Shown here one piece after another: positions 60,815 to 63,286 of a stretch of 64,000 nucleotides of DNA. This DNA is from Bacteroides sp. (lineage in GTDB: Bacteria; Bacillota; Clostridia; Oscillospirales; Acutalibacteraceae): the NCBI GenBank assembly GCA_023665085.1, contig JAMPEQ010000005.1:1-64000 (forward strand), written 5' to 3'. Position numbers and translations under genes: made by a program. The first letter of the stretch is position 1; each line of letters opens with the position of its first letter. The notes below the pieces were generated by a model. The model saw only the letters and a program-made list of their open reading frames with translations, made no database searches and was not told the origin of the DNA.

Positions 60815-60843
60815 TTGACAAATGGATTTTTATGGTGTATTAT
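60815..60843 (+). promoter_or_regulatory. promoter of riboswitch leader 1
   Basis: TTGACA at 60815-60820, 17-base spacer, TATTAT at 60838-60843, about 20 bases before the first aptamer. Very similar to the promoter of leader 2. Confidence 0.8.
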
Positions 60844-60867
60844 CAGGGTGTAGTAAGAAGTAAATAA

Positions 60868-60946
60868 CTCAATAGCAAAACCGATGAAAGTCGGTGACGC
60901 AAAACTAAAGGGACTAAGTCGTATGATATGTCAGCCAGCTGCCGTC
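60868..60946 (+). ncRNA. GEMM-I (cyclic di-nucleotide) riboswitch aptamer 1a
   Basis: Carries the conserved GEMM-I elements in order: AATAGCAAA, the P1b hairpin ACCGAT-GAAA-GTCGGT with its GNRA tetraloop, GACGCAAA, CTAAAGGGACTAAG and the 3' strand GTCAGCCAGCTGCC that holds the tetraloop receptor. This is the c-di-GMP-I family (RF01051). The base aligning with Vc2 G20 is A. A terminator follows 45 bases later. The 3' strand GCTGC (60938-60942) can pair with GCAGC of the terminator 5' arm (60990-60994), which predicts termination when ligand is bound. Confidence 0.92.
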
Positions 60947-60990
60947 TAAGAAACGTAATTCTTTTTTTCGTGCCCAAAACACGAAGCGTG

Positions 60991-61031
60991 CAGCCGGTTT
61001 CCCAAATTGAAGGAAAGGAGGCTGTTTTTTT
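60991..61031 (+). terminator. intrinsic terminator inside leader 1
   Basis: CAGCC..TTTCC / GGAAA..GGCTG hairpin followed by seven T. It is the expression platform of aptamer 1a. A smaller hairpin TTCGTG-CCCAAAA-CACGAA lies just before at 60967-60985. Confidence 0.88.
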
Positions 61032-61084
61032 ATTTACTGAAAATGCTGCAAAATACAAAATAAAAATTTAAATTAAATAAGAAC

Positions 61085-61166
61085 ACCAATAGCAAAACCG
61101 ATGAAAGTCGGTGACGCAAAGCTAAAGGGACTAAGTCAAAGTTGATATGTCAGCCAGCTGCCGTTT
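61085..61166 (+). ncRNA. GEMM-I riboswitch aptamer 1b
   Basis: Second aptamer in leader 1, nearly identical to 1a (GACGCAAAGCT instead of GACGCAAAACT, and another P2 loop). Again A at the G20 position. No terminator follows before the start at 61242; instead a small hairpin TTCTTT-AAC-AAAGAA (61216-61230) touches the ribosome binding site, so control may be at translation. Confidence 0.92.
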
Positions 61167-61241
61167 AAGATATCGTAAATCTAAAAAATCTATAATAACG
61201 ATTCACGGTTGGTAGTTCTTTAACAAAGAAAGGAAACAATC

Positions 61242-61469
61242 ATGAATTTAGTTTTATCAAAAATAATCGCAGCTATTTTGTCACTAATTTTCGCAATTAA
61301 CCTAGCAACTCCTGTCGGGTATAAAGTACCAAAATTCGTTCAGGAAATAACACCGTATTCAACTGAAGCAACAGATGAAACGGGATATGAAGACGAAACA
61401 GACTATGTACTTGATAATCAAAATGAAGAAAACCCTGGATCTGCTGATGCAGACAATCAGGATAATTAA
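61242..61469 (+). CDS. short secreted protein under tandem riboswitch control
   Basis: A 75-residue protein: signal peptide MNLVLSKIIAAILSLIFAIN with cleavage near residue 24, then a short acidic segment (TDETGYEDETDYVLDNQ). It aligns with the first about 65 residues of the 422-residue protein encoded at 62018 and then stops, so it may be a truncated paralogue or a free secreted peptide. The reading frame has no visible lesion; the TAA at 61467-61469 follows DADNQDN. RBS AAAGGA at 61229-61234. Function unknown. Confidence 0.78.
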   Translation: MNLVLSKIIAAILSLIFAINLATPVGYKVPKFVQEITPYSTEATDETGYEDETDYVLDNQNEENPGSADADNQDN

Positions 61470-61590
61470 CATCAAAAACAATAAAAAATCATTTCACAAT
61501 TAAAAATATAAACATATAATATTAATGTACATCAAACAAAATTCAACTAAGAAAATGTGCTAAAAAAATTTAAATAAATTCAAAAAAGTA

Positions 61591-61619
61591 TTGACAAATA
61601 GAATTTTGTAGTGTATAAT
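61591..61619 (+). promoter_or_regulatory. promoter of riboswitch leader 2
   Basis: TTGACA at 61591-61596, 17-base spacer, TATAAT at 61614-61619: a consensus promoter, stronger on paper than that of leader 1. Bases 61470-61590 before it hold nothing I can name. Confidence 0.85.
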
Positions 61620-61643
61620 AGATTTGTATTTGGAAGTAAATAA

Positions 61644-61722
61644 CTCAATAGCAAAACCGATGAAAGTCGGTGACGCAAAACTAAAGGGACTAAGTCGTAT
61701 GATATGTCAGCCAGCTGCCGTC
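61644..61722 (+). ncRNA. GEMM-I riboswitch aptamer 2a
   Basis: Same sequence as aptamer 1a, placed 776 bases downstream, followed by its terminator at 61767-61807. Confidence 0.92.
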
Positions 61723-61766
61723 TAAGAAACGTAATTCTTTTTTTCGTGCCCAAAACACGAAGCGTG

Positions 61767-61807
61767 CAGCCGGTTTCCCAAATTGAAGGAAAGGAGGCTG
61801 TTTTTTT
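61767..61807 (+). terminator. intrinsic terminator inside leader 2
   Basis: Identical copy of the terminator at 60991-61031, between aptamers 2a and 2b. Confidence 0.88.
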
Positions 61808-61860
61808 ATTTACTGAAAATGCTGCAAAATACAAAATAAAAATTTAAATTAAATAAGAAC

Positions 61861-61942
61861 ACCAATAGCAAAACCGATGAAAGTCGGTGACGCAAAGCTA
61901 AAGGGACTAAGTCAAAGTTGATATGTCAGCCAGCTGCCGTTT
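61861..61942 (+). ncRNA. GEMM-I riboswitch aptamer 2b
   Basis: Same sequence as aptamer 1b; lies 76 bases before the start codon at 62018, with the small RBS-proximal hairpin in between. Confidence 0.92.
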
Positions 61943-62017
61943 AAGATATCGTAAATCTAAAAAATCTATAATAACGATTCACGGTTGGTAGTTCTTTAAC
62001 AAAGAAAGGAAACAATC

Positions 62018-63286
62018 ATGAACTTATTTTTATCAAAAATACTTGCTGCTATTATGTCGCTTATTTGCGCAATCAATCTCGCTACCCCTGTAGGTTACAA
62101 AGTACCCAAAGTTGTTCATAATGTAACACCGTATTCGTCTGAAGCAACAGAAGGAACAGGATACGATGATGAAACAGACTATGAACTTGATAATAAAAAC
62201 GAAGAAAATCCTGAAACTCCGGATACTCCTGATACAGACGATCAGGATAAAAACACTAACGAAGAAACAAAAAATGATCAGGCTCCGGCAACTCCTGCTG
62301 AGACTCCTGAAAACACAAACAATAACGAAAACGACACAATGTCAGATCGCGCAGAGAATGTATTGGGCGATTTAGGCAATACAAATGACACAGCCAATCC
62401 GGCTGATGAAGACGAAATTAACGTCGAGGATCTTGAAATACTTGACACAATTGATATTTCAGCAACAGAAAATGATAATGTTACATTAACATTATATGCT
62501 GATGCTAAGCAGAGCAATGATGATTCAACAATATCAGCTTCTAAAAAAGCAGCTGCTACAGTAGACTTTAACAAGTCAGAAATCAGCAGCCAAGGCGATG
62601 ACGGTACTCCGACAGTAACTGCTACAGCAGTTGTAAGCGGTGACGGCAATATGGAAGATAATGTTTACAGACATTTTGTTGATATTGATAAATTTATTGA
62701 CAGCACTGAAGCTGCAATTGCTGAGTGTTATGGTCTTGAAAGAGAAATGGTTACACATTATACTCCTGAAGGTTTAACAGATCTTTTTGAAGTTGATGAA
62801 CACACCTCATATTTTACCACTTGTGACACTCCGATTGGACCAGAGGGTATTACCCTTGCTATCACTGATGAAGTAAGAGAAGCAATTATCCCTGCAACAA
62901 TGCTCAAATTTGCTATTAACGAAATCTCTTTTAAAGGTAATATTACAAACATTTCTGATGGTGCATTCCTTTTATGTGATGCCTTAACAGATATTACAAT
63001 TCCTGAAACAGTTAAAACAATCGGTGAAAACGCATTTTCATACTGCTCAAATCTTAAAAATGTTGTTATACCTGAAGGCGTTGAGTGCATCAAAGCTTCT
63101 GCATTTATGCACTGCGACAACTTAGAAACAGTTACTCTTCCATCAACAATTAATTATATCGGTGACGAAGCGTTCTCATTTATGATGGCAGGTTCTAAGA
63201 TTACCTGTGCAACTCAGGAAGTAAGAGGTCTTTTTAATTATTACAATGTAACTGCTGAAAGAACAACTGTTACTGTAGCAGAATAA
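62018..63286 (+). CDS. secreted leucine-rich repeat protein under tandem riboswitch control
   Basis: A 422-residue secreted protein. Signal peptide MNLFLSKILAAIMSLICAIN (cut near residue 24), an acidic Pro/Thr/Asn-rich stalk (about 45-150), a middle domain (about 150-290) of unknown fold, and at the end (about 305-410) BspA-type LRR_5 repeats (FLLCDALTDITIPETVKTIG, AFSYCSNLKNVVIPEGVECI, AFMHCDNLETVTLPSTINYI). No sorting signal, so it is released or weakly held. Control by cyclic di-nucleotide riboswitches suggests a role in attachment or the sessile state. RBS AAAGGA at 62005-62010; a strong terminator follows. Confidence 0.88.
   Translation: MNLFLSKILAAIMSLICAINLATPVGYKVPKVVHNVTPYSSEATEGTGYDDETDYELDNKNEENPETPDTPDTDDQDKNTNEETKNDQAPATPAETPENTNNNENDTMSDRAENVLGDLGNTNDTANPADEDEINVEDLEILDTIDISATENDNVTLTLYADAKQSNDDSTISASKKAAATVDFNKSEISSQGDDGTPTVTATAVVSGDGNMEDNVYRHFVDIDKFIDSTEAAIAECYGLEREMVTHYTPEGLTDLFEVDEHTSYFTTCDTPIGPEGITLAITDEVREAIIPATMLKFAINEISFKGNITNISDGAFLLCDALTDITIPETVKTIGENAFSYCSNLKNVVIPEGVECIKASAFMHCDNLETVTLPSTINYIGDEAFSFMMAGSKITCATQEVRGLFNYYNVTAERTTVTVAE

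Follow-up and report, generated by a model that had tools for sequence, protein, structure and literature searches.

Duplicated leaders with paired c-di-GMP-I aptamers in an Acutalibacteraceae genome: a candidate two-level OFF switch

The locus and its duplicated leaders

A stretch of 64,000 nucleotides (the window; positions 1 to 64,000 of contig JAMPEQ010000005.1, assembly GCA_023665085.1, Acutalibacteraceae in the GTDB lineage) carries two related genes, each preceded by a leader with two aptamers of the c-di-GMP-I class (GEMM-I, Rfam family RF01051), named for cyclic dimeric guanosine monophosphate (c-di-GMP). When the whole window was searched against Rfam 15 with cmscan, six matches reached the gathering thresholds, namely two tRNAs and four RF01051 aptamers. 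The four lie inside 1.1 kb, each matches model positions 1-87 of 87, and their scores of 65.7-72.5 bits (E-values of 1.3e-10 or 2.8e-12) stand against a gathering cut-off of 35 bits. The features of the locus are collected in Table 1.

Table 1. Features of the two leaders and their genes, in window coordinates
Feature	Position	Strand	Basis
Promoter-like site 1, TTGACA-17-TATTAT	60815..60843	+	Consensus scan, 11/12 matches; predicted, sigma-70-like
c-di-GMP-I aptamer 1a	60864..60946	+	RF01051, 65.7 bits
Proposed antiterminator: GCTGC 60938-60942 with GCAGC 60990-60994, and CAGCC 60932-60936 with GGCTG 61020-61024	60932..60994	+	Minimum free energy fold of the strand-free platform
Intrinsic terminator 1, CAGCC..TTTCC / GGAAA..GGCTG then T7	60991..61031	+	Sequence by eye, fold, comparable hairpins in homologous leaders
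c-di-GMP-I aptamer 1b	61081..61165	+	RF01051, 72.5 bits
Proposed antisequestor: GCCAGC 61153-61158 with GTTGGT 61208-61213	61153..61213	+	Duplex and forced fold; GCCAGT:ATTGGC in C29 and G077
Proposed sequestor hairpin over the Shine-Dalgarno sequence (about 61229-61236) and start codon; anti-Shine-Dalgarno TTCTTT 61216-61221	61201..61247	+	Fold with aptamer 3' strand blocked
75-residue protein, hydrophobic N-terminus then acidic stretch	61242..61469	+	Open reading frame
Promoter-like site 2, TTGACA-17-TATAAT	61591..61619	+	Consensus scan, 12/12 matches; predicted, sigma-70-like
c-di-GMP-I aptamer 2a	61640..61722	+	RF01051, 65.7 bits
Intrinsic terminator 2, identical copy	61767..61807	+	Identity at offset 776
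c-di-GMP-I aptamer 2b	61857..61941	+	RF01051, 72.5 bits
Proposed sequestor hairpin, copy 2	61977..62023	+	Opening cost 5.8 vs 2.2 kcal/mol; shuffles 22/300
422-residue surface-type protein, BspA-type leucine-rich repeats	62018..63286	+	PF13306 LRR_5, 86.7 bits

Compared base by base at an offset of 776, the leaders at 60857-61246 and 61633-62022 show no difference over exactly 390 bp. Each runs in the order aptamer, hairpin with a run of seven T residues, aptamer, ribosome site and ATG. The flanks of the identical tract diverge: the 13 positions before it include 8 differences, and the 178 positions after it 35. Because a promoter-like site was found by the consensus scan a few bases upstream of each copy, the start of each tract is near the expected site of transcription initiation, and its end is five bases inside the reading frame. 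The original prediction had described four GEMM-I aptamers and two identical 390-bp leaders in the order aptamer, terminator, aptamer, ribosome-binding site (RBS), and the covariance search, the comparison at offset 776 and the sequence and fold of the hairpin bear it out on these points. The four aptamers, the terminator-shaped hairpin, the identical copies and the promoter-like sites are features of the DNA itself.

A simple terminator scan did not list the hairpin between the aptamers, which has a loop of 9 nt where the scan allows 8. In the interval from the first gene to the second promoter, the same scan, a weak guide here in that it misses long-loop hairpins, gave no terminator on the plus strand; RNA polymerase starting at the first promoter may therefore transcribe all four aptamers.

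The window's own genome (G000; 2.34 Mb in 32 contigs) has nine RF01051 matches: the four in the window, a pair at C29:39099-39432, a pair at C22:248790-249098 and a single aptamer at C22:180032-180116. These leaders form one family, since the window leader finds the other three places by DNA similarity, at 69, 76 and 84% identity. The C29 pair precedes a gene for a protein with transglutaminase and fibronectin-III domains, and a doublet in a second species of the genus (G077:C47) precedes a transglutaminase-domain protein that is 53% identical to the C29 protein over 538 positions.

The terminator platform

By sequence and fold, the first unit of the leader has an intrinsic terminator. A hairpin followed by a U-tract stands after the first aptamer in the window, C29, G077, C22 and G008:C19, with different letters in the different leaders; none is present after the single aptamer of C22 (L036) or in G008:C41 (L043). 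The window terminator uses no aptamer nucleotides, as 44 nt lie between, and the competing fold, the proposed antiterminator, does use them. Therefore, ligand binding should favour the terminator and turn the gene off. The homologous G008 platform adopts the same antiterminator fold as the window. The 5' arm of the G077 terminator can pair with its own aptamer through 12 continuous pairs and a second block, and none of 1000 shuffles was as good; for the complementarity of the C29 arm to its own aptamer, 3 of 1000 were as good.

The 3' arm of the window terminator (61012-61024) also holds AAGGAGG, a full Shine-Dalgarno-like sequence. The motif was seen in four of the six terminators read (window, C29, the first of C22 and G008:C19) and is missing from those of G077 and the second C22 aptamer. 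In the homologous platform of G008:C41 there is no U-tract, and the same arm (GAAAGGA) is the RBS before the ATG of a CAP-domain protein. From this comparison, it is as if terminator and RBS hairpin were interconvertible.

A probable ribosome-site platform

Control of translation at the RBS by the second unit is probable, judging from three distinct leaders (window, C29 and G077). A conserved GUUCUU follows aptamer 2 in each and can pair with the Shine-Dalgarno sequence. A second stem, flanking the anti-Shine-Dalgarno, also pairs in all three despite changed letters on both sides. The pairs are UUCUUU:AAAGGA and GGUUG:CAAUC in the window, UUCUUG:CAAGGA and AAGAUU:AAUCUU in C29, and UCUUGU:ACAGGA and AAUAGA:UCUAUU in G077. 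The 5' side of this second stem overlaps a stretch that is able to pair with the 3' strand of the aptamer (GCCAGC:GUUGGU in the window, GCCAGU:AUUGGC in C29 and G077). A MAFFT alignment of the four leaders misplaces the start-codon region. The distance from aptamer 2 to the start codon is 76 nt in the window, 104 nt in C29 and 85 nt in G077.

The cost of opening the Shine-Dalgarno and start region was compared with the aptamer strand barred from, or free for, downstream pairing. Opening is dearer with the strand barred in all four leaders, two of which are the near-identical window copies: 7.1 versus 2.3 kcal/mol in copy 1, 5.8 versus 2.2 kcal/mol in copy 2, and 7.0 versus 5.1 and 8.5 versus 6.8 kcal/mol in the other two. 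Among 80 genomes of the genus, the second-platform pattern was found at three places in G000 and one in G077, and the reversed control pattern was found nowhere.

Proposed mechanism and its alternatives

The reading that we favour, with moderate confidence, is that the leader consists of two complete riboswitches of the c-di-GMP class in series, forming a homotypic bi-mechanism OFF switch. In the absence of ligand, the 3' strand of aptamer 1 would pair downstream and block formation of the terminator; with ligand present, that strand would be held in the aptamer and RNA polymerase would stop at the terminator. Transcripts that escape would carry aptamer 2. Once this is bound, its 3' strand would release GUUGG, allowing an anti-Shine-Dalgarno hairpin to cover the ribosome site and the start codon. 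High ligand would thus silence the surface-protein genes at both levels, first at each round of transcription and then reversibly on the finished mRNA. The likeliest ligand would be c-di-GMP, made by the one GGDEF protein found in the genome, which combines response-regulator, HD-GYP-type and GGDEF parts. This arrangement is supported by the recurrence of the aptamer-terminator-aptamer-RBS unit before homologous transglutaminase-domain genes in G000:C29 and G077:C47.

A transcriptional platform for the first aptamer had been predicted from the sequence, and the terminator hairpin and the homologous leaders agree with it. Of the further suggestion that the second aptamer acts at the ribosome site, the hairpin itself gains from its recurrence in homologous leaders, and the support from shuffles is moderate. 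The two platforms, if correctly drawn, would indeed let one transcript be checked twice by the same ligand class. The idea of a two-input switch is rejected, since both aptamers are of the same class and have the same pocket letter; these shared properties predict instead a steeper or two-stage OFF response.

Several results weigh against a two-level switch. The pairing energy of the window antiterminator is not significant, as 70 of 1000 arm shuffles were as good, nor is it in G008 (59/1000) or for the second and first aptamers of C22 (169/1000 and 199/1000). The second platform is informed by three distinct leaders only, and its bound-state opening cost was reached by 9, 22, 7 and 47 of 300 upstream shuffles (2-16%). 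An opening cost of at least 5.8 kcal/mol is also reached by 12 of the 46 window open reading frame starts with a Shine-Dalgarno-like site, a set that includes the 422-residue gene. The probability that the window Shine-Dalgarno is unpaired is about equal in the two states (0.45 versus 0.46 in copy 1, 0.53 versus 0.45 in copy 2), and the change between states falls in stem length and the start codon. For the C29 start codon, the unpaired probability is high in either state (0.87 versus 0.91). In the minimum free energy structures of C29 and G077, the RBS hairpin is present in either state; any switching in these two leaders would therefore need to be kinetic. The start codon of G077 is itself uncertain: TTG was used, and the list of open reading frames has GTG nine bases upstream.

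These moderate RBS-hairpin statistics leave some room for a pseudo-cooperative arrangement, in which only the pairing of terminator and aptamer counts and aptamer 2 is either a relic or acts by another route such as Rho-dependent termination or mRNA decay. This is how surveys describe c-di-GMP-I doublets (PMC9481103, PMC12452182), and in the C22 doublet of G000 each aptamer is followed by a terminator-like hairpin with a T-tract. We consider it unlikely for the window, given that no terminator or U-tract was seen by eye behind aptamer 2 in the window, C29 or G077 leaders and that the GUUCUU motif recurs between aptamer 2 and the start codon. The opposite sign of control, with ligand preventing the terminator as in Bc3-5 of Bacillus thuringiensis so that c-di-GMP turns the surface proteins on, is decidedly less probable. 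The freedom of the terminator, unlike the competing fold, from aptamer nucleotides corresponds to the OFF logic of Cd1 (PMC9262584). An ON switch would suit the target genes in one respect. Surface adhesion is usually favoured by c-di-GMP.

The ligand

All nine G000 aptamers have A at the position equivalent to G20 of Vc2 and G11 of Cd1, and so none has the G of the c-di-GMP-selective form. Over 43 aptamers from G000 and its relatives, this selectivity position is G in 29, A in 13 and C in one, the last in G008; the count covers 43 of 44 loci (L033 was dropped because its core was unmatched) and omits three further places without a locus, two of which (G039:C30:51370 and 51487) carry G. The A-type letter occurs in 3 of the 13 RF01051-bearing genomes of the genus, which are G000, G008 and G077. 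Cd1 still bound c-di-GMP when its G was replaced by A or C, and the position is treated in that account as a factor in selectivity and not as a strict filter (PMC9262584); membership of RF01051 therefore stands, although the aptamers are A-type.

The same letter is the argument for 3',3'-cyclic GMP-AMP (3',3'-cGAMP) as the physiological ligand in place of c-di-GMP, because A at this position accompanied improved cGAMP binding by a Desulfobacca aptamer (PMC9481103). Two other marks of the cGAMP-binding GEMM-Ib form are absent. In the Rfam alignment, the P2 closing pair of the window aptamers is G-C, whereas P2 of the crystallised cGAMP riboswitch runs from C15 to G40 (PMC6274999) and its closing pair is thus C-G. 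Hypr enzymes have Ser where a canonical GGDEF protein has Asp (PMC6456294). A single GGDEF protein is present in each of G000, G008 and G077; all three proteins carry an HD-GYP motif and the canonical Asp (GHMFGD or GHGFGD). No SMODS CD-NTase match was found in G000; a search with PF21654 (DncV-like) also returned nothing, and is uninformative in that the controls gave no match either. Together with the place of this letter in Cd1 as a selectivity factor and the C found in one G008 aptamer, these results make cGAMP a rather improbable ligand.

Instead, c-di-GMP is the likelier ligand, perhaps with relaxed selectivity, because the one GGDEF protein identified carries the canonical Asp. By Pfam, the G000 protein has response-regulator, HD and GGDEF domains (GGDEF at G000:C22:137601-138047). 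No EAL domain was found in G000, and synthesis and breakdown of the signal may perhaps both reside in this one GGDEF and HD-GYP-type protein. Across 60 genomes, G000 included, a GGDEF domain was found in 13/13 with GEMM-I and 10/47 of the others (hypergeometric probability 2.2e-7, with relatedness ignored).

A more elaborate scenario is improbable as a whole. It would have a homotypic bi-mechanism c-di-GMP-I module descend from one inherited leader, with gene conversion maintaining its sequence identity in front of surface genes that have diverged. Its A-type pockets would have drifted to reading 3',3'-cGAMP or several cyclic dinucleotides together, in a lineage where no Hypr cyclase is recognised.

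The downstream genes and the identity of the leaders

The original prediction called the two downstream products related and secreted. They are related, as 47 of the first 61 residues are identical; the term secreted is based on an N-terminus that looked hydrophobic by eye. The 75-residue protein has no Pfam or NCBIfam match, and no relatives of the 422-residue protein were found in the genome contigs searched. Over the 61 codons, the rate of nonsynonymous substitution (dN) between the two genes is 0.11 and that of synonymous substitution (dS) is 0.78 (NG86), suggesting that both reading frames are kept by selection and diverged long ago.

A 390-bp tract without change, beside codons with dS near 0.8, is not what plain descent from an old duplication would leave. 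For the 49-nt linker between terminator and aptamer 2, the chance of no change is 1.8e-5 at an assumed divergence of 20%. Because the leaders are identical while the adjacent codons are not, the identity probably arose through recent gene conversion or through the movement of one leader to the other gene. The genome is split over 32 contigs and the repeat exceeds a typical short read, so that the identity might be ascribed to assembly; an artefact is very improbable, however, given that the flanks on both sides of each copy are clearly different and the contig is 181 kb long.

Comparison with known systems

Tandem GEMM-I aptamers are not rare in themselves, and the rarity proposed in the original prediction is rejected as a strong claim. 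The genome has four tandem pairs, two of them in the window, and c-di-GMP-I tandems were the most numerous doublets (347) and triplets (12) in a published survey (PMC9481103). There they are classed as pseudo-cooperative, and the bi-mechanism table contains SAM combinations only; by the survey's own statement, not all tandems were evaluated. The association of tandem c-di-GMP-I aptamers with transglutaminase genes is likewise known, since those before COG1305 transglutaminase-like genes in Bacillota are listed in PMC12452182; the C29 and G077 doublets match it. The second riboswitch of a tandem may, in general, be translational according to the same source. In a limited literature search, no paper was found to name a c-di-GMP-I doublet in which one platform is transcriptional and the other translational.

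The window aptamers resemble other RF01051 members in their full-model matches and surface-type target genes, and differ in having A rather than G at the position of Vc2 G20 throughout the genome. Like the triple riboswitch Bc3-5 (PMC4759541), the leader places complete riboswitches in series; Bc3-5 is an ON switch, whereas OFF control is predicted here. The leader also departs from tandem c-di-GMP-I systems in a second platform that looks translational and in having two identical doublets in a row. With bi-mechanism SAM-II/SAM-V tandems and some SAM-II doublets it would share a first aptamer with a terminator, a second at the RBS and the same ligand for both, the aptamer class being c-di-GMP-I in this case (PMC9481103). 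The Cd1 OFF riboswitch of Clostridioides difficile has the same logic of an antiterminator that consumes aptamer nucleotides and a terminator that does not (PMC9262584), but is a single aptamer and transcriptional. Opposed control of transcription and translation has been described for Bc1 of B. thuringiensis, a single c-di-GMP-I aptamer (PMC11218506). The cGAMP riboswitches of Geobacter (GEMM-Ib) share A at the selectivity position and include tandem pairs (PMC6456294), and differ in the P2 closing pair, which is G-C here, and in the Hypr cyclase, for which no counterpart was found. The locus belongs to a known kind but appears to combine its features in a new way, with a proposed homotypic two-level OFF switch in duplicated and probably homogenised copies.

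If this reading is true, a single message is controlled at two stages by one signal and one aptamer class, and the advantage proposed for bi-mechanism control, a fast stop plus a reversible block of finished mRNA, could be tested with a single ligand. Sister leaders of one genome would use two terminators (C22) or a terminator and an RBS hairpin (window and C29). Since in a related species (G008:C41) the homologous platform looks like an RBS hairpin, the transition between the transcriptional and the translational form could be traced. With its A-type pocket and a canonical cyclase in the same genome, the system would also test cleanly how well one letter predicts the ligand.

Other GEMM-I loci in the genome and genus

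RF01051 was found in 13 of 80 genomes of the genus, G000 included; only 47 candidates were scored per genome under strict filters, and absences are therefore soft. The G008 leader leaves its contig just where the second aptamer begins. The A-type aptamer pattern was matched by nine stretches in named genomes, including Paenibacillus, Izemoplasmatales and Oscillospiraceae. Eight of these nine leaders were viewed by eye; the core pattern placed a second aptamer within 400 bp only in L056, the sequence of which is that of G077.

The C22 pair of G000 precedes genes for SipW-like signal peptidases and a PARCEL-repeat surface protein. The peptidases score above the cut-off of TIGR02228 and well below the SipW model's own cut-off. 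Their small neighbours have no family match, and we take them to recall TasA-type matrix proteins. The single C22 aptamer (L036, G000:C22:176000-184000) is identical to the first of the pair, with the terminator cut off, and continues into an apparent gene fragment, resembling a decayed duplicate of the SipW-like locus.

In four other genomes of the genus (G006:C39, L039; G036:C48, L040; G030:C48, L041; G085:C60, L078), G-type GEMM-I aptamers stand both before and after a GGDEF gene, placed by search in the first three and, in L078, only by a similar protein start seen by eye. There the cyclase looks to be controlled by its own product, with the second aptamer separating it from the next gene. 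G-type GEMM-I pairs also occur in other species at L045 (G035:C58:710-932) and L047 (G039:C30:51370-51560), spaced 139 and 117 nt from start to start.

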